Shown piece by piece: positions 29,519 to 38,322 of a stretch of 38,322 nt of DNA. The translations under genes and the position numbers were made by a program. Each line of letters begins with the position of its first letter. Within the stretch, counting starts at the first letter, position 1. The stretch comes from Marivita geojedonensis. Lineage in GTDB: Bacteria > Pseudomonadota > Alphaproteobacteria > Rhodobacterales > Rhodobacteraceae. The DNA is taken from assembly GCF_002115805.1 (NCBI RefSeq), contig NZ_JFKC01000029.1, positions 1 through 38,322 of the forward strand, given 5' to 3'. The notes under the pieces were generated by a model. That model worked only from the letters and a program-made list of their open reading frames with translations, had not been told where the DNA came from and ran no database searches.

Positions 29519-29910
29519 GACATGCGCCAGCGCGAACGGTCGATTTGCAAGTGGTTAATCTCTGGCCAGGATAACCCCGCCCATCGGATCCGAGACCCTT
29601 TCCGTCTTTTGGCGGAACACCCCAGGCGACTACCCTCTCTCTACGGACGCTTTATGTGCGTTCAGACCATGAGAGACGCGTCTCAACAGGGCCTTCGGGG
29701 TACAGGTTCGGAGCTTCGTCAGAGGCTCTGCATGGGGGAGAGAATGTCCGCCATATATCTGTCGCAAATACCCAGAGAAACAATGGCTTGATGTTGAAAA
29801 AATGTTATCTTTCTAACTGTTAAGGCGCACTGACTTGTTTCAACTTGAAGCATCTGGTTGCGCTGAGTAGCATCCAATCACATACTTTTTGGTACGTAGG
29901 AAGATGCGCA
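29519..29910. other. Gene-free region holding the left boundary of the mobile element
   Basis: These 392 bases carry no gene that I can support; an 89-codon frame at 29522-29791 has no ribosome site and looks random. No tRNA or tmRNA 3' end is recognisable on either strand, although P4-type integrases often use one. A perfect 12-bp palindrome, GAGACGCGTCTC, is at 29673-29684. From about 29760 the sequence turns AT-rich, and a loose TTGAAA / TGTTAA pair at 29794-29823 could be an integrase promoter. The left attachment site is expected here but cannot be fixed without its partner. Confidence 0.5.
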
Positions 29911-31185
29911 ATGCCTAGGAAAGCCAAAGAACTCACCGCGCTCGACGTAAAGCGTCTGGTGCATCCGGGAAGCGGTGGAAACGTGATGAAACCGGTGGGT
30001 GGTGTTGATGGCCTCTACCTTCAGATCACACCATCCAATGCGCGATCATGGATACTGCGCACCAGCATTGCGGGCCAACGTCACAAGATGGGCCTTGGCC
30101 CCTATCCAGAGGTGTCGTTGGCTGACGCCCGTAGGAGTGCAGCACAGGCTCGCTCGAGCATCCGGCTTGGGGAGAACCCTCTGTTGGAAAGAAAGGCCGC
30201 TCGCGCAGCGCTCCGAACGGCTAAGGCACGCAGCCTCCTATTTGCTGATGCAGTCGAACAGTATCTGGACACGAAACTGGATGAGTTCAGCAATGCGAAA
30301 CACCGGCAGCAATGGCGCTCGACCTTGATGAACTATGCGAACCCTGTGATCGGACAGATGATGGTTTCTGAAATCACAACTCAGGATGTGCTGCGTGTGC
30401 TGGAGCCGATGTGGAAGGACAAGACCGAGACAGCATCCCGTCTGCGCGGTCGAATAGAAGCCGTTTTGTCGTGGGCGACCGTGGCAGGCCATCGCACTGG
30501 CGAAAACCCGGCCATTTGGAAGGGCCACCTTGAAGCAATCCTACCAAAGCCGAACAAGCTGGCGAAGAAAGAACATCACCCCGCACTGAAAATTAGCGAG
30601 GCCCCGGAGTGGTTTGCAGATGTGTGTTCCCGGGATGGGACCGGGGCGAAGGCACTGGCTTTCATAGCCCTGACCGCAGCGCGTTCCGGAGAGGTGCGCG
30701 GCATGACTTGGGGCGAGGTCGATCTGGACACAAGCCTTTGGATCGTCCCAGCCGAGCGCATGAAAACAGCGAATGAGCATCGGGTACCGTTGTCGCCACA
30801 AGCTATCGATTTGCTTCGTGATTTAGGCCGCGGTTCGAACGGTGATCTCGTGTTCCCAGCAGTGAAAGGTGGTCAGCTGACAGACGCGGCTCTCAGTGCC
30901 TGCATGAAGCGCATCGCAGCAGCCAAGCCCGGTTACTATCTTGACGCTACCAGCAAGCGCCCAGCAGTGCCACACGGGCTGCGCAGCACCTTCAAGGACT
31001 GGACGGCAGAGCGCGGCTATCCATCGGATATGAGTGAGATCGCACTTGCTCACAAGGTCGGTTCTGCGGTGGAGAGAGCCTATCGCCGGACGGACATGCT
31101 TGAAAGACGCCGGGACATGATGGCGTCGTGGAGCCAATTCTTGCGGGGTGAAACTGTAGGCAATGTAGTGTCACTCAATGCTTGA
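29911..31185 (+). CDS. int: Tyrosine-type site-specific integrase, P4/DUF4102 class
   Basis: A 424-residue integrase. The N-terminal arm-binding DUF4102 domain (about 5-95, with GLYLQITPSNARSWILR and MGLGPYPEVSLADAR) is followed by a core-binding SAM-like domain (110-205) and the catalytic domain. Catalytic residues are visible: Arg258 (TAARSGEVRG), His355 and Arg358 (HGLRSTF), His381 (LAHK) and Tyr391 (VERAYRRTD). It therefore appears intact. I chose the ATG at 29911 after AGGAAG. It is the first gene of the element and should recombine the element with its chromosomal site. Codon use and GC are lower than in the upstream core genes. Confidence 0.94.
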   Translation: MPRKAKELTALDVKRLVHPGSGGNVMKPVGGVDGLYLQITPSNARSWILRTSIAGQRHKMGLGPYPEVSLADARRSAAQARSSIRLGENPLLERKAARAALRTAKARSLLFADAVEQYLDTKLDEFSNAKHRQQWRSTLMNYANPVIGQMMVSEITTQDVLRVLEPMWKDKTETASRLRGRIEAVLSWATVAGHRTGENPAIWKGHLEAILPKPNKLAKKEHHPALKISEAPEWFADVCSRDGTGAKALAFIALTAARSGEVRGMTWGEVDLDTSLWIVPAERMKTANEHRVPLSPQAIDLLRDLGRGSNGDLVFPAVKGGQLTDAALSACMKRIAAAKPGYYLDATSKRPAVPHGLRSTFKDWTAERGYPSDMSEIALAHKVGSAVERAYRRTDMLERRRDMMASWSQFLRGETVGNVVSLNA

Positions 31186-31304
31186 CCGAGTTTGGCACAT
31201 GTCGTAAAAACAAACCGAGAACATGGGCAATGACGCCCGCTCCATAACGGAATGAAACGTTGGGGTGGGCCGTGTTGCATCGGAGGTTGGCTCATCCTGA
31301 AAAG

Positions 31305-31327
31305 GGTGGGCTTTTTTCTTGCCCGCC
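31305..31327 (+). other. Hairpin with T-rich loop before the alpA-like gene
   Basis: GGTGGGC at 31305-31311 can pair with GCCCGCC at 31321-31327 (one G-T wobble) around the loop TTTTTTCTT. It lies between int and the AlpA-like gene, 21 bases before the latter. Because the T-run is in the loop it is not a standard terminator; it may still affect read-through or translation. Confidence 0.35.
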
Positions 31328-31348
31328 GTAGCTGTTGCGGAGGGCTGG

Positions 31349-31540
31349 ATGGCCAAAGAACAAACTTTCCTGACAGTATCGCAAGTTGCAGCGCGATATG
31401 GCGTTCATCGTGCCAGTGTATGGCGTTGGCATCGCGACTTAACCGACTTTCCCAGAGCCATCAGATTGGCGCCGGGAACAGTCCGCTGGCGTCTCTCCGA
31501 CCTTCAGTCTTGGGAAAATAACCAAGTGGAGTCGGCATGA
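31349..31540 (+). CDS. AlpA-type small helix-turn-helix regulator / excisionase
   Basis: A 63-residue protein of the AlpA/MerR-like HTH class: FLTVSQVAARYGVHRASVWRWHRD is the helix-turn-helix, followed by FPRAIRLAPGTVRWRLSDLQSWE, the usual AlpA tail. GCGGAGGG stands before the ATG. In P4-like elements and phage-inducible islands such proteins act as excision factors or as activators of the integrase. Its position right after int fits that role. Confidence 0.85.
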   Translation: MAKEQTFLTVSQVAARYGVHRASVWRWHRDLTDFPRAIRLAPGTVRWRLSDLQSWENNQVESA

Positions 31541-31570
31541 ATCAACCGTGAAAGCGATGGAAAACACGAA

Positions 31571-31593
31571 CCCCGCGCTTTGACAGCGCGGGG
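31571..31593 (+). other. Strong GC hairpin downstream of the AlpA-like gene
   Basis: CCCCGCGCT at 31571-31579 pairs perfectly with AGCGCGGGG at 31585-31593 around TTGAC, 30 bases after the AlpA-like stop. No T-run follows (CCGGAAC), so it may be a processing or attenuation structure, or part of a structured RNA. It opens a roughly 340-bp stretch with only two weak small reading frames before the terminase gene. Confidence 0.45.
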
Positions 31594-31748
31594 CCGGAAC
31601 TGGGGACGGTTTGCAGACAGTGGCCCAGTTTAGGGAAGCCTACCACGGGGCGGGACCATAGGCAAAGGGCAGTCCGAAAGGTGGAAGCCCGGTCCCCGGC
31701 GCAGCGTTCAAGCGTCGAAAGTAGCCACCAACTTTCTGGCAGGAACGC

Positions 31749-31907
31749 ATGACCAGAGAGGCCCTAAGCGGCGGCCCGGCTCCGATGAGCAGAGCAAGAC
31801 CGTGGCCGGGCATGGGAACCAACTCCGGCCAAGTGCTGGGGCTGGTCGTCCTATGCCCGTCACAACAACCCCCACCAATGAGCAGGAACACAGAGATTAA
31901 CAGTTGA
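31749..31907 (+). CDS. Possible small protein (52 aa), unknown
   Basis: A 52-codon frame from ATG 31749 to TGA 31907 with AGGAAC just upstream. The product is Pro/Arg/Ser-rich with no recognisable domain. It sits in the otherwise empty stretch between the AlpA-like and terminase genes, where phage satellites normally have regulators or a small terminase. Coding is uncertain; it could equally be part of a packaging (cos/pac) site or a non-coding RNA. Confidence 0.25.
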   Translation: MTREALSGGPAPMSRARPWPGMGTNSGQVLGLVVLCPSQQPPPMSRNTEINS

Positions 31908-31929
31908 ACAGAGAGATAGAGACAGAGGT

Positions 31930-32151
31930 TTGACAAAACGGCGTGCAGATAAACACGAACGCCCGAGCATGCATCCCGCATGGTTCGCTCGGGGGGTGGT
32001 CGTGGCCGATCGGGAGCAATCCGTCCTGTGCTTCATCGGTCGCGCCACAACCGCCGACAAACTGGTCCCAATGCCCCGGCTTCTGGGGGAGGTCGGCGGC
32101 GTGGAGCGGGGTTATCCTTTCGCAATTACCGGATCGGGGGTCTCAGCATGA
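31930..32151 (+). CDS. Possible small protein coupled to the large terminase
   Basis: A 73-codon frame from TTG 31930 (or 60 codons from ATG 31969) whose stop overlaps the terminase start as ATGA at 32148-32151. That overlap matches the style of the following genes and is the main reason to take it seriously. The product has a central hydrophobic patch (GVVVADREQSVLCFIG) and resembles no family that I know. It occupies the usual place of the small terminase, but is too short and lacks a visible HTH. Confidence 0.4.
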   Translation: MTKRRADKHERPSMHPAWFARGVVVADREQSVLCFIGRATTADKLVPMPRLLGEVGGVERGYPFAITGSGVSA

Positions 32152-33653
32152 AACCTGCAACGACTGCGATCAAATTCATCGAAACACTGAAGATTCCGAC
32201 CGGTCGGAACGCAGGCAAGCCGATGAAGTTGGCGGCGTTTCAAAAGCGATTTATCCGAGGTGCCTTTGATCCCGACATCCGCATCGCAGTGCTCAGTGTG
32301 GCGCGCGGCAATAGCAAATCCGCGACAACGGCGGCGATTGCGGTGGCGGAACTGTTCGGCGTGTTCAACGATCAGCCGCGTCGAGAAATCCTGCTCGCTG
32401 CGGGCAAGAGGGATCAGGCCGAGGTGGTCTGGACCTACGCGCTCGATCTGATCCGGTCCATGCCTGACGAAGTGCAGGAGCGCATCAAGGTTCGCTATTC
32501 GCCTAAGCTGGAAATCGAACTCGACGGTGAGCACAAAATCCGGGGCATCGCTTCAGATGGGGCTGGCATCCTTGGCACGTCTCCGACTCTTGTGATCTGC
32601 GATGAGAGGGCTTCATGGGCCGAGCCGAAAGGTTCACGACTGGAAACAGCGTTGCTCACCGGCGCTCTGAAGCGGCAAGGCAAGACGTTGATGATCTCGA
32701 CGAGCGCGGCCACGGATGCACATCCGTTTAGCCGTTATCTCGACGAGGATGAACCGACAACGTACCGGCAAGATCACCGTGCACCGGCAGGCTGCAAGCC
32801 GGATGATCCAAAGGCGATCAAGGCAGCGAACCCGGGCATTGATGCGGGCATTGCGCCACCTCTCAGGGAACTGCAAGCGGCGGCACGTCGAGCCATGTCA
32901 CGTGGTGGACACGAACTTCAGGCGTTCCGCCTGCTCCACCTCAATCAGCGCGTAAACGACGCCACGAACGAGCCACTGATCGACGTAGACGATTGGCTCA
33001 GGGTCGAGACCGACACCCTGCCCGAGAAAGCTGGGCCGCTGGTCGTGGGCCTCGATCTCGGTGGCAGCGCGAGCATGAGCGCGGCGGCGTTTTTCTGGGC
33101 ACGGACGGGTCGGCTCGAGGTTCGCGGCTGGTTCCCTTCCCGGCCCGGTTTGCTCGATCGGGGTCAACGTGATGGCGTCGGCAACCTCTACCTGTCGATG
33201 CAAAAAGAGGGAACGCTGCGAACACTGGGTGATGCGACCGTGCCTGTCGCGTCATGGATCAAGGCCGTGGTCGATGAAGCCAAAGGCTACCAGATCGACG
33301 CGATCTGCTACGACACGTTCAAGCAAAGTGAAATTCAGGACGGTCTACGCGCGGCGGGTTTGAACGCAAGACAGGTGTTGCGCCGCTTCGGGCCATTTGA
33401 TGGCGGCGAGGACGCAGAACGTTTCCGGCGCGCTGTCTATGATCGACATGTCGCAACACCTGAGACCTTCATGATGCGATCTGCGCTCGCTGGGGCTGTT
33501 TGCAAGCGTGATGGGCAATTGAACCCATGCCTCGATAAATCGAGATCGACTGCTCGCATTGATGCGGTTTCGGCGGCTGTTTTGGCGGTCGGTGAAGGTA
33601 GCCGGATCATGGGGCGCGGTCCTGTCAAAGCGGGGCGCGTCGCATGGGGCTGA
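32148..33653 (+). CDS. terL: Phage terminase large subunit
   Basis: A 501-residue packaging motor. The N-terminal ATPase has a Walker-A-like VARGNSKSATT (about 51-61) and Walker B LVICDE (148-153), with the coupling TSAATD nearby. The C-terminal RNase-H-like nuclease shows the acidic positions Asp303 (VVGLDLGG), Asp389 (CYDTFKQ) and Asp472 (RIDAVSAA). It pumps DNA into the prohead through the portal. I start at MKPATTAIKF after GGGGGTC; 56 upstream codons in frame look non-coding. It overlaps the HNH gene by 10 bases. Confidence 0.93.
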   Translation: MKPATTAIKFIETLKIPTGRNAGKPMKLAAFQKRFIRGAFDPDIRIAVLSVARGNSKSATTAAIAVAELFGVFNDQPRREILLAAGKRDQAEVVWTYALDLIRSMPDEVQERIKVRYSPKLEIELDGEHKIRGIASDGAGILGTSPTLVICDERASWAEPKGSRLETALLTGALKRQGKTLMISTSAATDAHPFSRYLDEDEPTTYRQDHRAPAGCKPDDPKAIKAANPGIDAGIAPPLRELQAAARRAMSRGGHELQAFRLLHLNQRVNDATNEPLIDVDDWLRVETDTLPEKAGPLVVGLDLGGSASMSAAAFFWARTGRLEVRGWFPSRPGLLDRGQRDGVGNLYLSMQKEGTLRTLGDATVPVASWIKAVVDEAKGYQIDAICYDTFKQSEIQDGLRAAGLNARQVLRRFGPFDGGEDAERFRRAVYDRHVATPETFMMRSALAGAVCKRDGQLNPCLDKSRSTARIDAVSAAVLAVGEGSRIMGRGPVKAGRVAWG

Positions 33654-33985
33654 AGGAATACAAACGACATTCTGCGAAGGTCACGCGCACGAGGCGGTGG
33701 AAGGCGCTGAGGCAGGAAGCACTGCGTCGTGATGGTTTCGCCTGCGTCCAGTGCGGTGCGCGTGGTCGCCTTGAGGTCGATCACATCAAGCCTGTTCGGA
33801 CACATCCGGAACTGTCGTTCACTTTGGAGAATTTGGCCTGTCTCTGTCCCGGCTGTCACAGCCGCAAGACACGTATCGAGATCGGCTTAGGGCAACCCGA
33901 CCCCAAGCGTGAGGCTTGGAAACGCTTGCTGCGCGAAATGCAGCGATCTGTCGAGCAAAGGGAAACAAAATGCTTGAATCCGTAA
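33644..33985 (+). CDS. HNH endonuclease of the packaging module
   Basis: A 113-residue HNH nuclease with a zinc knuckle: Cys34-x2-Cys37 (CVQCG) and Cys68-x2-Cys71 (CPGC), with the catalytic Asp46-His47 (VDHIKP), Asn63 (LENLAC) and His72 (CHSRK). In HK97-like phages an HNH protein next to the terminase is required for terminase cutting at cos. Overlaps with terL (10 bases) and with the capsid gene (16 bases) indicate a single co-translated unit rather than a homing intruder. Confidence 0.92.
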   Translation: MGLKEYKRHSAKVTRTRRWKALRQEALRRDGFACVQCGARGRLEVDHIKPVRTHPELSFTLENLACLCPGCHSRKTRIEIGLGQPDPKREAWKRLLREMQRSVEQRETKCLNP

Positions 33986-35235
33986 AGATCAGCCGACGCC
34001 AGTCGGAGATCAGACAACAGCTTGCCGAATTGGTGGGCAAACAGACACCGACCGAGGACGAAACCCGGTCGATGGAAACACTCGACTCGGAATATCGCAC
34101 CAATGAAACCCGCTATCGCGCGGCGCTCATTGCCGAGGACGAAGAACGCCGCGAGGCTGGGGCCGAACTTGAAACTCGCTCAGAGCGTGAGTGGTCCGAT
34201 ATGATGGCCGGTTTTGAACTGCGCCAAGTGGCGCTGGCTCTGGACGAAGGGAAACAACTCGACGGGCAAACCGCAGAGATCGTCACCGAACTGCGCAGCG
34301 CGGGCGGCTATCGCGGACTCCCGGTTCCGTGGCAGGCATTGGAAATCCGCGCCGGCGAAACCATCGCCTCCGGAACCCCGGACCCTGTTTCGACCCGTCC
34401 AATCATCGACCGGCTTTTCCCGGCCTCTGCGGCGGCGCGGATGGGCGCTCAAATGGTCAATATCAACAGCGGACAAGTCGAATGGCCGGTGGTCACAAGC
34501 GCCGTGTCCGCAGGCTGGGCCGCGACCGAGACCGGTAACGTGGCCGATCCTGCGGCCTATACGACAACTGACCGTCCACTGGCCCCAGATCACTGTCTGG
34601 GTGTCCAGATGCGGATCACGCGCAAAACGCTGAAACAGTCGGGCGCGGCACTGGAACAGGCAGTCCGGCGCGACATGAACGGCGCAATGGCGCAGGCGAT
34701 GGATCAGGCGGTATTCCTTGGCTCTGGTTCGACCGGCGAACCCACCGGCGTGTTCACCGGCGCAGCGACGTGGTCGATCACAGAGACCGCCATCGACGCG
34801 GCAGCATCGTGGTCCGCGTTCCGGGCGGCGGTGGTTAGGTTCATGACGTCCAATGCCGCAGGATCGCCCGAGGCGGTGAAACTCATGATCCGGCCCGAGG
34901 TCTGGGCGGCTCTGGATGATACCTACATCGACACCGGCACCGGCGTGACCGAATGGGACCGCCTGACTCGCAACATCCCGGCGGGCAACGTGGTGATGAC
35001 GACCAACGCGCTTGCGGCACCGGCTGGCGGCCCGCCGGTCGCGTCCAATGCGCTTCTGACGACATCGGCAGGCGGAACACCTCCGATTTTTGTTGGTGCG
35101 TGGAATTCGGTGGACGTCATCCGCGACCCATTCAGCGACGCAGCAAGCGGTGGCCTTCGACTGACTGCGCTCGCCACGATGGACGTGACGATCTCACGGG
35201 CGGCACAGCTTGAAGTCCTGACAGGTATTCAGTGA
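33970..35235 (+). CDS. HK97-fold major capsid protein
   Basis: A 421-residue capsid protein. About the first 95 residues are a charged helical delta-domain of scaffolding type (SRRQSEIRQQLAELVGKQ, then Glu/Arg-rich), which would be removed by the prohead protease. The HK97 fold follows, with PVPWQALEIRAG, TEWDRLTRNIPAGNVVMTTNALAA and a C-terminal DPFSDAASGGLRLTALATMDV. I start at MLESVKISRR after AAAGGGAA. It overlaps the HNH gene and touches the protease gene (TGATG). It stands before the protease and portal, the reverse of the usual order. Confidence 0.93.
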   Translation: MLESVKISRRQSEIRQQLAELVGKQTPTEDETRSMETLDSEYRTNETRYRAALIAEDEERREAGAELETRSEREWSDMMAGFELRQVALALDEGKQLDGQTAEIVTELRSAGGYRGLPVPWQALEIRAGETIASGTPDPVSTRPIIDRLFPASAAARMGAQMVNINSGQVEWPVVTSAVSAGWAATETGNVADPAAYTTTDRPLAPDHCLGVQMRITRKTLKQSGAALEQAVRRDMNGAMAQAMDQAVFLGSGSTGEPTGVFTGAATWSITETAIDAAASWSAFRAAVVRFMTSNAAGSPEAVKLMIRPEVWAALDDTYIDTGTGVTEWDRLTRNIPAGNVVMTTNALAAPAGGPPVASNALLTTSAGGTPPIFVGAWNSVDVIRDPFSDAASGGLRLTALATMDVTISRAAQLEVLTGIQ

Positions 35236-35846
35236 TGCTCTGGGGCGGGTCTCTGGGCGGACTAGAGGTCCGCAAAAGCCGCGAGGGTGGTTTCCACCTT
35301 CGCGGAACTTTTCCCTATGGTGCGCGAACAACGTTGAGCGACGGCGGGCGCAATGGTGGCCGGCCACGCAAAGAAGAATTTGCGCCCCGCGCGTTCGCCT
35401 ACAACGTCGAGCGCGAGGACGTGAACATCATGTTCTTGAGCGGCCATCGCTGGGACAAACCCTTAGCATCGCGAAAAGCCGGGACACTCAAACTGCAAGA
35501 CTCGGATGATGCTCTAACCTTCGACGCGGTGATCTCAACGGAGGTCCAAGAAACATCATGGGCGCGGGACTTCATGGCCGCTTTCGCGGCTGGTCTTGTG
35601 CTCGGACTTTCACCGGGCTTTCGACTGCCGCCTCAGCGAACTGTCAAAAACGCTGAAACGATCAAAGAAGAGGATCCAGCCGAAGGCAACGCGCTGATTA
35701 GGGTCGTGAACCATGCCCTACTCTGGGAGGTTTCAGCGGTTACTAAAGCCGCTTACGAAGAGGCGCAGATCGAGGCGCGGAACTGGACGCCTGATCCGGC
35801 CACACGCCTTCACAAGCCGACTCCGGCGTATCGATGGAGGGCCTGA
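35235..35846 (+). CDS. HK97-family prohead protease
   Basis: A 203-residue S78-type protease that trims the capsid delta-domain during head maturation. His71 (LSGHRWDKPLA) and Ser126 (LGLSPGFRL) are the probable catalytic pair, and NHALLWEVSAVTKAAY is the conserved strand that follows. I start at ATG 35235, which shares a base with the capsid stop; a GTG one codon earlier is possible. The gene ends 2 bases before the connector start. Confidence 0.9.
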   Translation: MLWGGSLGGLEVRKSREGGFHLRGTFPYGARTTLSDGGRNGGRPRKEEFAPRAFAYNVEREDVNIMFLSGHRWDKPLASRKAGTLKLQDSDDALTFDAVISTEVQETSWARDFMAAFAAGLVLGLSPGFRLPPQRTVKNAETIKEEDPAEGNALIRVVNHALLWEVSAVTKAAYEEAQIEARNWTPDPATRLHKPTPAYRWRA

Positions 35847-35848
35847 GC

Positions 35849-36388
35849 ATGATCGACATTATTCGACAAACGGAAGCAACACCGACCTATCCAGCGGCAC
35901 CGGATGGGCTGTCTGCGGCGGCGGCGGCTCTGGACCCAGATATGATCTGGGCGAGGATAGAATCCTACATCGCGCACCGCTTTTCAGAGCGGGAGATTAT
36001 CTGGACGGTCTCTGGTTTTGCCGATGATGCATGGCTGGCGCCGATCGGCCCGGTGGTGTCTCAGACGGCTGAAAAATGGATCGACGGTGCATGGTCTGCG
36101 GTTAGCCTGGACGATGGCCCACTAGGCCCATGCCTTCCAAGCGATGGGACGTTTCGGATCACGGCAACGGTCGGTGCGACCCCGGTCCCGTCAGAGGTCG
36201 ATCAAGCATATCGGCGGCTTGCGGAATATTGGGCCGTTGAAACCGGCAAGGCTGGCGTGTCTGAGCATCGTGTGAGCATCGGCGGCGAGATCGAAGAATC
36301 TTTTTCGCGGAGTCCGGTCTGGATGGCGCGGGCAATGGTCAATTCAGGCGCGGCCGATCTGTTGCGTAAATACAGGAGTTATCCATGA
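35849..36388 (+). CDS. Phage head-tail connector (gp6-like adaptor)
   Basis: A 179-residue protein. The N-terminal IESYIAHRFSEREIIW segment, the middle strand-rich part and the C-terminal PVWMARAMVNSGAADLLRKYRSY helix fit the gp6/gp15-like head completion adaptors that bind below the portal. The assignment rests on length, pattern and position. ATG 35849 has GGAGG 8 bases upstream; the ATG at 35834 precedes that site. It overlaps portal by 4 bases. If correct, the heads made by this element are built to accept a tail. Confidence 0.7.
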   Translation: MIDIIRQTEATPTYPAAPDGLSAAAAALDPDMIWARIESYIAHRFSEREIIWTVSGFADDAWLAPIGPVVSQTAEKWIDGAWSAVSLDDGPLGPCLPSDGTFRITATVGATPVPSEVDQAYRRLAEYWAVETGKAGVSEHRVSIGGEIEESFSRSPVWMARAMVNSGAADLLRKYRSYP

Positions 36389-37437
36389 TCTGGCCTTTCA
36401 ACAAACGAGATAGAAACGAAACGCGCTCGAGCGGCACCGGCTACACGACGCAGATTATGCAGGCGCGAGCGGACTACATCGCTGGTGTTGACGGTTCGGC
36501 CGAACTCACCGGGACCGTTCAAAGCGCGGTCTCATTGTGGACTGGAGGCTTGTCGCTGTCGGATGTCTCAGGCACCGATCTATTGACGCCGGACATCTTG
36601 GCGCTGTCGGCACGGGCCTTGGCGCTTCGGGGTGAGGCCGTGTTCTACGTGATCGAAGATCAGCTTGTTCCAGCAAGCGATTGGGATGTGACAACGAGGT
36701 TGTCGCGGCCTGTGGCCTATCGTCTGGGCCTACCCGACACCGGCGGCGGAACATCAATCACAGCGCTGGCTGGCGAGGTGCTGCATTTCAAGATCGGCGC
36801 GGATGTAAACATGCCCTATGTCGGACAATCACCATTGCGTCGAGCACGATTGACGGCTTCGCTGCTTCACGCACTCGAAACGGCGCTGGCAGAGGTCTAT
36901 GAATTCGCGCCGCTCGGGTCGAGCGTTATTCCCATGCCGGAAAATCCAGAGACAGACATGGACAAGCTGGCGAGGGGATTCAGGGGATTCCGCGGGCGCG
37001 TGCTAGTGCGCGAAAGTGTGAACGTCACCGCGGCGGGCGGCGCTACGCCTCAGACTGATCTGAAGCCGCATAACGTGACGCCTGATCTGGAACGGGCGAT
37101 GACGCGGGAAAGCCTGCAAGCGGCGCGTGACGCGATCAACATGGCCTTTGGCCTGCTGCCGGGGCTTTCGTCACCCGCCACCACTGGGCCGCTTGTTCGC
37201 GAGGCACAACGCCATCTTGCGCAATGGACGCTCCAACCCATCGCCGGAATGATTGCTCAGGAGTGCAGCGAAAAGCTGGGCCAGCCGATCGAACTGGACG
37301 TGATGCGACCGCTTCAAGCGTTCGATGCAGGAGGTCGCTCAAGGGCGCTTTCTGCGATCGTGCAAACGCTGGCGCTGGCGAAGGAGTCGGGCGTCGATCC
37401 AGAAAAGGCCCTTCAACTGGTGGACTGGGATCAATGA
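36385..37437 (+). CDS. Phage portal protein (HK97 type)
   Basis: A 350-residue portal, shorter than the usual 400 or more. N-terminal MIWPFNKRDR and YTTQIMQARADYIAG, the central LSARALALRGEAVFYVIEDQLVPASDWDVT, GEVLHFKIGADVNMPYVGQSPLRRAR, and the later TRESLQAARDAINMAFGLLPGL helix are family features. It forms the dodecameric ring through which the terminase packs DNA. ATGA overlap with the connector gene. It is the last head gene in the window, and no tail gene follows. Confidence 0.88.
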   Translation: MIWPFNKRDRNETRSSGTGYTTQIMQARADYIAGVDGSAELTGTVQSAVSLWTGGLSLSDVSGTDLLTPDILALSARALALRGEAVFYVIEDQLVPASDWDVTTRLSRPVAYRLGLPDTGGGTSITALAGEVLHFKIGADVNMPYVGQSPLRRARLTASLLHALETALAEVYEFAPLGSSVIPMPENPETDMDKLARGFRGFRGRVLVRESVNVTAAGGATPQTDLKPHNVTPDLERAMTRESLQAARDAINMAFGLLPGLSSPATTGPLVREAQRHLAQWTLQPIAGMIAQECSEKLGQPIELDVMRPLQAFDAGGRSRALSAIVQTLALAKESGVDPEKALQLVDWDQ

Positions 37438-37511
37438 CGAGATCGGCTGATTGCGCCGGGCTGGCAGATACGTTGTCGAAGCAATCCGTCTTAGTCGGTG
37501 AGTCACGTTAG
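37434..37511 (+). CDS. Micro-frame overlapping the portal stop (25 codons), doubtful
   Basis: An ATG at 37434 overlaps the portal TGA exactly as the other genes of the module overlap, but the frame closes after 25 codons (ends 37511). It could be a truncated remnant of the next head gene, or chance. No domain is visible. Confidence 0.2.
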   Translation: MTRSADCAGLADTLSKQSVLVGESR

Positions 37512-37560
37512 CAACCCCGACAAGGCGCGGCAGGGCATACTGCCTTTTCTCCCCCTGCGC

Positions 37561-37604
37561 GGCGCGGACCCAGCACGGTTATTGAGGGCCGGGGCTGGGT
37601 CGTT
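37561..37604 (+). repeat. Hairpin repeat, copy 1
   Basis: GGCGCGGACCCAGCACGG (37561-37578) and CCGGGGCTGGGTCGTT (37589-37604) are separated by 10 bases. GACCCAGC (37567-37574) pairs with GCTGGGTC (37594-37601), making a terminator-like hairpin followed by a short T-run. The same two blocks recur in the same orientation at 38092-38132. This copy lies after the portal and touches the stop codon of the minus-strand gene at 37604. Confidence 0.8.
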
Positions 37605-37870
37605 TAGCGGCAATTCTGTTCGATCAAAAGTTGCAACAACTCAAGAGATCGATCCATTTCTGAGATTGGAGGCAGCGATCCTTCGATGCGTTGGAAATTG
37701 GCAAAGTCGGTGCCGCGTAGCGCTCGCTCTAACTGACTACTCCGATCAATAGCTGCTTCGAAACTGAGCATCGCGGATTCGACTACTTCGCATTCCAAAG
37801 GCCCCCACTTGTGGGCATCGGCCAAGGCTGGAACAGGAAGCAGAACGATGATCGCGATAAATGATTTCAT
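37604..37870 (-). CDS. Small predicted secreted protein, unknown
   Basis: An 88-residue protein with a convincing signal peptide (MKSFIAIIVLLPVPALA, then DAHKWG). The mature part is acidic and helical, with two cysteines, one near the start (LECEVVES) and one at the C-terminus (EQNCR), which could form a disulfide. I do not recognise it. A longer start at 37894 is possible, but the signal peptide favours 37870. It is the only minus-strand gene in the element, lying between two hairpin repeats, like a phage moron. Confidence 0.55.
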   Translation of the reverse strand: MKSFIAIIVLLPVPALADAHKWGPLECEVVESAMLSFEAAIDRSSQLERALRGTDFANFQRIEGSLPPISEMDRSLELLQLLIEQNCR

Positions 37871-37909
37871 ACAGATTAATTCGCACGAATCCACTTCCCC
37901 GCAAAGGGG

Positions 37910-38059
37910 TTGACCAAATTCGTCGATCTGGTGATTGCGTCCGTGGGCCTGAAAACCCGAACGGACAAAGACCGCGGAAAAGTACTCGCGGCCGGTGTGG
38001 CTACTGTTGCCACCCTGTTGATTGCTCTTGGTCTAAAGTTTCAAACTGAGGCCAATTGA
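37910..38059 (+). CDS. Small predicted membrane protein, unknown
   Basis: A 49-codon frame from TTG 37910 to TGA 38059. A short charged start (MTKFVDLVIASVGLKTRTDKDRG as two parts) precedes one clear hydrophobic segment (VLAAGVATVATLLIALGL). AAAGGGG abuts the TTG; a GTG eight codons inside (37931) is an alternative. It diverges from the secreted-protein gene and is followed by hairpin repeat copy 2. Plausible single-helix membrane protein; function unknown. Confidence 0.45.
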   Translation: MTKFVDLVIASVGLKTRTDKDRGKVLAAGVATVATLLIALGLKFQTEAN

Positions 38060-38091
38060 GTCAAATCATTTATTGGTCGGGCGGTGGGCGC

Positions 38092-38132
38092 GGCGCGGAC
38101 CCAGCACGGCTAGTTACCGGGGCTGGGTCGTT
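38092..38132 (+). repeat. Hairpin repeat, copy 2, and right edge of the window
   Basis: The blocks at 38092-38109 and 38117-38132 are identical to those of copy 1, with a 7-base rather than 10-base connector. The last 190 bases beyond it hold no gene that I can support. Short protein-like stretches in two frames (38129-38203 and then to 38273) suggest a remnant or a start further on, and a perfect 14-bp palindrome AGGCGAATTCGCCT lies at 38298-38311. The right attachment site was not found. Confidence 0.75.
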
Positions 38133-38322
38133 ATCTGCGCCGTGCCCGCGCATGGAAGTTGCTGCAGATCGTGGAGGCAATGGAGAGAAGGATCAATTGA
38201 ACTCAAGCAACCCGCGTACAACGCGCAGTACAAACTGCCTCTCGGTTTGCGTCAGGCGCGAAAAAAGGGATAACAGGCGCTGTTGCTCTTCCGCTTCAGG
38301 CGAATTCGCCTTAGGGTCAGGA

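Follow-up and report, generated by a model that had tools for sequence, protein, structure and literature searches.

Gene Content of the Window

The window analysed here is the whole of contig C22 (38,322 bases) of the Marivita geojedonensis assembly, which comprises 4.31 Mb in 73 contigs. Its right part carries an integrated element, a candidate phage satellite, which is the subject of this work. As the window is an entire contig, the assembly joins no sequence to its right end at position 38,322. The element shows an array of eight intact genes, all on the forward strand:

29911..31185, +, P4-type tyrosine integrase (Int), 424 amino acids (aa); PF22022, PF13356 (Arm-DNA-bind_3) and PF00589 (Phage_integrase); phrog_1, 5.8e-53
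31349..31540, +, AlpA-like excisionase/regulator, 63 aa; PF05930 at 4e-8, 33.5 bits for a cut-off of 21; phrog_66
32148..33653, +, terminase large subunit (TerL), 501 aa; PF03354; phrog_9, 1.2e-66
33644..33985, +, HNH endonuclease, 113 aa; PF01844; phrog_144
33970..35235, +, HK97-fold major capsid protein, 421 aa; PF05065 at 2e-17; TIGR01554 above cut-off
35235..35846, +, S78 prohead protease; PF04586 at 8.9e-15
35849..36388, +, putative head-tail adaptor, 179 aa; conserved location between the protease and portal genes; alignment of 23 sequences
36385..37437, +, portal protein, 350 aa; phrog_12, 5.4e-7; PF04860 at 38.1 bits, just under the cut-off of 39.1; TIGR01537 below cut-off

The starts of the genes for Int (29,911), AlpA (31,349), TerL (32,148), the capsid protein (33,970) and the protease (35,235) were refined, and from terL through the portal gene neighbouring genes overlapped or almost abutted. 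Pfam and PHROGs agreed on the integrase, AlpA, TerL, HNH, HK97-type capsid, S78 protease and portal. A preliminary description of this DNA had listed the same eight genes in the same order, and all eight were present; its label "connector" for the 179-aa protein found no support in Pfam, PHROGs or NCBIfam, none of which held a matching family. The profile of this protein did not match Ad1 of the relative L008, and its AlphaFold2 model had a pLDDT of 91.0 and a pTM of 0.80. The role of head-tail adaptor is putative and is suggested by the position of the gene. As for head-tail connectors, the window has only this unannotated protein; relatives carry Ad1 and Hc1.

In the window part of the element, Pfam and PHROGs recognised no gene for the small terminase subunit (TerS), a primase, lysis or a tail, in agreement with the preliminary description, and no replication module. 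The HNH protein had a side match to a PHROG labelled TerS, which covered its HNH part. The set of tail, lysis, repressor and replication genes expected of a complete tailed prophage was found neither in the window part nor in the relatives described below.

Integration Site and Element Ends

The following features were located at the ends of the element:

29576..29752, +, 5' part (177 nt) of a predicted host multicopy small-RNA gene, interrupted by the element; copies across the genus
29733..29752, attL core TGGGGGAGAGAATGTCCGCC; pairs with the attR core TTGGGGAGAGGATGTCCACC
29888..29901, candidate arm-type repeat TTTGGTACGTAGGA, 14 bp, also at C73:117970-117983 just inside attR; position near both ends
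C73:117901-117920, −, attR core TTGGGGAGAGGATGTCCACC; same genome, about 100 bases from the end of contig C73

Of the 17 genomes of the genus, 13 had copies of the 177-nt sequence that were 70–95% identical to it, its own genome counted. The other aligned copies (n = 15) continued into a palindrome, exact or near, followed in 13 of them by a run of at least four T; the window copy stopped at this point. RNAalifold gave 53 pairs for the set, seven of them with compensatory double changes (a count made without a shuffle comparison), and no Rfam family matched. The interrupted sequence probably represents a small-RNA gene of approximately 230 nt with its own terminator. Most of the genomes in the genus had such a predicted RNA, with full copies in the own genome at C9:70445-70638 and C73:20017-20210.

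Three exact copies of the small-RNA 3' end existed in the own genome, two of them within the full copies. The third, at C73:117881-117909, began approximately 114 bases from the end of C73 and had no upstream part, and it was therefore read as attR. The attL and attR sites shared a common core of 20 bp with three differences. The 14-mer TTTGGTACGTAGGA was not significant against the genome-wide chance expectation (E 8.45), and its placement near both ends is what points to an arm-type repeat. On the right side of attR lies a gene for a 411-aa protein, which followed a copy of the small RNA in three related genomes, G012, G013 and G002 (loci L066, L073 and L083, respectively). This copy was uninterrupted in G012 and G013; in G002, a pattern search did not find its 3' end. 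Read from the sequence, these ends place the element within the 3'-terminal part of a predicted gene for a small RNA. The preliminary description had proposed to look for attR beyond the window, and it was indeed there, on C73. There is no overlap between C22 and C73, and the element consists of approximately 8.7 kb of assembled sequence plus a gap of undefined size. The size of 8.4 kb given earlier is that of a piece cut by the contig end.

Occurrence and Gene Order of the Relatives

Of the 390 genomes of the order, 43 encoded the capsid protein (E <= 1e-60), corresponding to 33 of 139 genera, own genome counted. All 51 capsid matches of this search, some of them partial, had stop-free frames. 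Premature stops in the head genes of relatives, which the preliminary description would have taken as a refutation, were thus absent from these capsid frames, and the open frames argue against decay. A draw from the class gave two positive genomes of 385, one being that of the window itself, and a capsid search of genome contigs gave six loci. Among IMG/VR viral contigs, 34 and then 573 stretches were found by the capsid and 470 by the portal; the best 80 of each of the two larger sets were retained. The named hosts were Mameliella, Roseovarius, Amaricoccus, Planktotalea and a Bradyrhizobium metagenome-assembled genome, to which Pseudorhodobacter turbinis was added, with the element on a large replicon.

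The portal had no match in 50,697 phage records. The capsid had 19 weak partial matches in the same records, with an identity of at most approximately 38%, none covering more than 80% of its length. The head module appears to be separate from those of known phages. In nearly all loci of sufficient length with a strong capsid match, the order HNH-capsid-protease-(connector)-portal was observed, the connector being absent from its place between protease and portal in about a quarter of them. This order recurred across loci far beyond chance.

Size of the Relatives

Attachment (att) repeats bounded 36 places, corresponding to 35 distinct elements, as L140 and L378 are the same element. The preliminary description had suggested a search for the same block in other Rhodobacterales, ending at a small size. 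This is what was seen: 34 of the 35 distinct elements spanned 9317–11,276 bp (mean 10,489 bp, including the one counted twice). The outlier, L232, measured 13,730 bp and possessed two integrases. By coordinates, the att repeat lay at a tRNA gene in 29 of the 36 places. Contigs with terminal repeats gave units of 9940 bp (L040) and 10,640 bp (L198), and in L011 the int gene was split across the contig ends. The count includes L086, whose att of 15 bp was identified with a script and by visual inspection; it leaves out the tandem pairs L027, L175 and L200, a weak 24-bp repeat in L012, and a low-complexity repeat spanning 14.7 kb in L377. In L027, L175 and L200, two divergent copies of the element stood in tandem, approximately 10.2–10.7 kb apart, as if one site had been used twice.

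These figures bear on the idea that the window copy is a defective or decaying prophage without tail genes, or a normal prophage with its tail genes in the gap. The right end of this copy is unassembled and the loss of a tail half is a common route of prophage decay, both of which would fit. However, nearly all of the distinct relatives with att repeats on both sides have a length of about 10 kb, every capsid frame is open, the gene order is fixed, attR lies close to the end of C73, and the portal is absent from the phage records. A prophage origin, decayed or normal, seems very unlikely.

Accessory Genes of the Relatives

The scan for accessory genes covered 39 complete elements, of which 38 are distinct. 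It comprised 215 proteins, 115 of them representing clusters and 100 taken singly. The representatives came from 126 clusters (at least 80 aa, one representative each) and the single proteins were the non-core proteins of at least 80 aa among 190; some antisense frames are included. With Pfam (best 25 of 27 matches in one scan, all 23 in the other), integrases, helix-turn-helix (HTH) proteins, helicase/primase and initiator domains, head-completion proteins and connectors were recognised, and PHROGs agreed among the matches listed (best 25 of 102 and best 25 of 52 families). No lysis or TerS family was present among the matches listed for the 215 proteins, and no tail family either, L392 excepted. 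Several complete relatives of approximately 10–11 kb possessed helicase or primase genes, so that replication genes are variable in this family. The preliminary description had called the element minimal, and smaller than described ones for want of a replication module. Both statements hold for the part of this copy that lies in the window and fail for the family. The relatives are discrete units of nearly constant size in which, with one exception, no tail or lysis gene was recognised.

The accessory content also bears on a second alternative, an autonomous minimal virus of the Duplodnaviria that would make a short neck or tail from its uncharacterised proteins and need no helper. Adaptor and head-closure genes exist in members of the family, several have their own helicase/primase, a tape-measure-like gene occurs in one of them (L392), and the PHROG matches place two accessory proteins in a family of virion structural proteins. 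Against this, a length of approximately 10 kb leaves little room, the largest identifiable non-core proteins are helicases/primases or integrases, and lysis families were lacking among the matches listed. We regard an autonomous virus as highly improbable.

A conserved domain of approximately 115 residues (HKRMSKMLGYTLT...) was seen beside the adaptor gene at the left ends of L003, L008, L085 and L140. It had no family match and could be a candidate small terminase.

A Cos-like Site Upstream of terL

Two features that the preliminary description did not contain, a nearly invariant cos-like site and a covarying RNA after alpA, were observed between alpA and terL. The first is the following:

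32063..32115, +, cos-like packaging-site candidate, TGGTCCCAATGCC at 32063-32075 plus a G-rich right half; conserved before terL

The motif TGGTCCCAATGCC emerged from the alignment of the DNA preceding terL. Within 400 bp upstream of terL, it was present with at most three mismatches in 128 of 151 loci, 95 of which were exact. Thirty shuffled motifs searched in the same 400 bp gave none at zero or one mismatch, and at most three mismatches in 262 of 4530 cases. The 11-mer TGGTCCCAATG, searched up to 1 kb upstream of terL in 141 unique loci, was exact in 105, had at most one mismatch in 124 and at most two in 134; fifty shuffled 11-mers at one mismatch were found on average in 1.02 loci, with a maximum of seven. 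With at most one mismatch, it occurred exactly once, in the forward direction and never in reverse, in 124 of 153 loci. There were 28 places outside the interval of 40–130 bp upstream of terL, 23 of them at 183–780 bp upstream and five elsewhere. An exact 15-mer was found in at least 120 IMG/VR stretches. For the 80 loci listed, which partly overlap those from the capsid and portal searches, 69 had the terL of the family on the same strand, no more than 1.2 kb downstream; no family gene was seen in the DNA available for the remaining 11, two of which span just 40 and 403 bases downstream.

The frames across the TGGTCCCAATGCC site contain stops in many elements, showing that it is not conserved as coding sequence. 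With the HNH gene adjoining terL, this site is most likely to have a cos function.

A site of this kind, single in most loci, can be set against a third alternative, a domesticated particle resembling a gene transfer agent. Gene transfer agents are common in Rhodobacterales, to which most of the named hosts belong. They package random host DNA, and have a structural cluster that includes the tail and no integrase; that of Rhodobacter has a different gene order. The present elements, in contrast, possess their own integrase, AlpA and att sites, have no recognised tail cluster, and occur patchily (43 of 390 genomes). This alternative is extremely unlikely.

A Structured RNA After alpA

The second feature, also upstream of terL, is an RNA containing two paired repeats:

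31600..31925, +, structured non-coding RNA; conserved upstream of terL; covariation
31780..31792, +, paired direct repeat 1, CTCCGATGAGCAG; alignment by eye
31873..31885, +, paired direct repeat 2, CACCAATGAGCAG; alignment by eye

The direct repeats flank a hairpin and, by eye, vary in concert between lineages. A profile found the RNA at 42 loci, with both halves in 17. The fold was derived from the alignment on which it was then scored, comprising 16 sequences of full or nearly full length, and 97.8% of cells were paired. Double changes affected 17 pairs and 48 cells, compared to 8.1 and 12.0 in shuffled alignments, and none of the 500 shuffles was as high; slid versions of the fold had at most four pairs and six cells with double changes. 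Further pair types (37, compared to 34.8 when shuffled; 98 of 500 shuffles) were not above the shuffles. A shorter variant, in 21 other sequences, showed covariation in 10 of 35 pairs, for which no shuffle comparison was made. No Rfam family matched at the gathering threshold. A glutamine riboswitch was rejected, as the window scored 25 bits for an Rfam threshold of 35 and seven relatives showed no such match.

The RNA was present in 28 of the 390 genomes of the order. Sixteen loci containing the RNA and no known head module were fetched, and none had a terL, capsid or cos motif of the window family, which led us to reject an RNA dedicated to packaging with this head module. L403 and L404 are examples of such loci, and eight of the 16 resembled the window in int and/or AlpA. 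The RNA therefore seems to travel with the integration and regulation module and not with packaging. Candidate roles are that of an origin of replication and that of a regulator substituting for the missing repressor. A simple RNA immunity similar to that of P4 was rejected, as a simple search found no general reverse complement of the paired repeats. In L403, an HTH-like protein and a type I restriction methylase, both read by eye, come after the RNA.

Features to the Right of the Portal Gene

The segment between the portal gene and the end of the window contained the following features:

37557..37604, repeated hairpin unit, first copy, terminator-like; a function as terminator is presumed
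37604..37894, −, orfX, 96 aa from a GTG (88 aa from an internal ATG), with a signal-peptide-like start by eye; no family
37910..38059, +, possible 49-aa open reading frame with a TTG start and one hydrophobic stretch, read by eye
38088..38132, repeated hairpin unit, second copy; from repeat families

Among the loci of relatives compared, orfX had no convincing homologue (best E 0.024) and the 49-aa frame had none; orfX matched no family in Pfam, PHROGs or NCBIfam. The secreted-looking orfX and the hydrophobic 49-aa frame sit between the two hairpin copies and are possible cargo.

A Model of the Element

We consider it quite probable that the element is an integrative phage satellite of approximately 10 kb which encodes a procapsid and packaging machinery of its own and acquires the tail of a helper phage. 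We propose the following cycle. Int, with AlpA, would excise a circle. Its DNA would be replicated by the helper or, in relatives carrying a helicase/primase, by the element itself. TerL and HNH may then cut at TGGTCCCAATGCC and fill a small self-made head of HK97 type, on which the putative adaptor would accept a helper tail. Lysis would be supplied by the helper.

Several points weigh against this interpretation. The right part of the window copy, between position 38,322 and attR on C73, is not assembled. No helper phage was identified. Apart from the capsid of the window, the own genome contained no PF05065 match, and a TMP_3 tape measure was not found in it either; no resident helper was thus seen by these families. 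Cos-type packaging usually needs TerS, and none was found in spite of the cos-like site. The left-flank proteins had no match in any of the 21 loci examined, so that the evidence for an empty site comes from the right side only. Six of the 20 regions fetched for sizing had no usable att repeat (L374, L386, L388, L389 and L391, together with L377). The size screens used stretches of at most approximately 21 kb (25 kb for L232), and one took spans of 7.5–16 kb only; larger elements could not be seen in this way. As the accessory scans were read from the best matches, a single lower match to a tail or lysis family is possible. L392 encodes, after the portal (L392:5453-7093, −), a 547-aa tape-measure-like protein scoring 50.8 bits for TMP_3 with a cut-off of 41, and phrog_10356, "virion structural protein", matched two of the 100 single accessory proteins. 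Some members may therefore supply more than heads. It is possible that the protein of L392 sets the length of a borrowed tail.

With these points in mind, the satellite interpretation still describes an element type that is real and probably functional, tail-less and capsid-encoding, of nearly constant size (approximately 10 kb) and common in Rhodobacterales. The family is apparently widespread and undescribed: no description of it was found in a limited collection of literature, available in part, and the Charybdis elements, as presented in the available part of PMC12324425, are other elements. A more detailed picture is offered tentatively, as one that is somewhat more likely to fail than to hold. 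In this picture, the family would be an abundant and separate alphaproteobacterial lineage of approximately 10-kb satellites, with TerS-free packaging by TerL and HNH at the nearly universal TGGTCCCAATGCC, unusually small self-made HK97-type heads, and a new structured RNA travelling with int-alpA, which may replace a repressor or act in replication.

If the satellite interpretation is true, approximately one in nine of the surveyed genomes of the order carries a head-making satellite, and hundreds of short "viral" contigs (the 573 capsid-bearing stretches) may be mistaken for phage fragments. The length of approximately 10 kb, the single cos-like site and the lack of a recognised TerS make several questions testable: the minimal size of a self-assembled HK97-type head, the cutting of cos by HNH and TerL without TerS, and which phages donate the tails.

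Comparison with Known Systems

The P4-like satellites resemble the window element in their P4-type integrase, their AlpA and a non-coding RNA near the regulator. P4 itself uses the capsids of P2. The comparator chosen for capsid-forming phage-inducible chromosomal islands (PICIs) was a genome stretch of E. coli O157:H7 EDL933, which we take to be EcCIEDL933; its gene content fits, and the record does not carry this name. The record reads int-HTH-...-replicase-...-capsid-protease-portal-closure-connector-HNH-TerS-TerL, with genes over approximately 14.4 kb. Int, an AlpA-like HTH protein, HNH, TerL, an HK97-type capsid, protease and portal are common to EcCIEDL933 and the window family, as are, in relatives of the window element, connectors; the relative order capsid-protease-portal is the same, and the part of the record that was read has no annotated tail gene. 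A strict capsid-forming PICI sharing a common ancestor with EcCIEDL933 would account for this, and the TerL proteins are 23% identical (E 1e-12). However, the capsids could not be aligned and the similarity of the portals was weak (45.6% probability). The terminase block lies on the opposite side: terL-HNH precedes the capsid in the window family and follows the connectors in EcCIEDL933. The window family has no P27-type or other TerS among the genes recognised, whereas EcCIEDL933 has one, and the family spans approximately 10 kb between att repeats compared to the 14.4 kb of annotated genes. The window family also has a cos-like site and a structured RNA of its own, whereas the head region of EcCIEDL933 contained no such motif beyond chance. 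Common ancestry of this strict kind is unlikely; homology of the head genes at the sequence level was not found with EcCIEDL933, the only capsid-forming PICI compared.

The preliminary description had assigned the element to the capsid-forming satellites. This assignment stands in so far as the element is small, discrete and integrated, encodes head and packaging proteins itself and has no tail gene that could be recognised; the kinship with EcCIEDL933 is weak. Set beside the definition of capsid-forming PICIs in the available part of PMC10690885, the element shows chromosomal integration with an integrase and att sites, AlpA near int, and its own capsid, protease, portal (slightly below the Pfam cut-off), TerL and HNH. 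Tail genes were absent from the window part and, among the matches listed, from the complete relatives scanned, except L392. It departs from that class by the small terminase subunit, which was not found, and by the replication module, which was not found in the window part and is variable in relatives. According to the available part of PMC11389934, the capsids of capsid-forming PICIs fall into three clades. Judged from its genes, the family would work like a capsid-forming PICI and looks like a separate lineage, seen in Alphaproteobacteria and mostly in Rhodobacterales.

Other satellites share parts of this organisation. MulchRoom and MiniFlayer, satellites of Streptomyces phages, resemble the window element by their own capsid and terminase genes and the absence of an obvious replicase; by the description in the available part of PMC10690885, they differ in being actinobacterial, in having virulent helpers and in possessing TerS and a scaffold. 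PICMIs are set apart, by description in the available part of PMC10803314, as elements without capsid-remodelling genes. Together with VEIMEs and tycheposons, they are nevertheless similar to the window element as small satellites proposed in marine bacteria (PMC11389934 and PMC10803314, both available in part).

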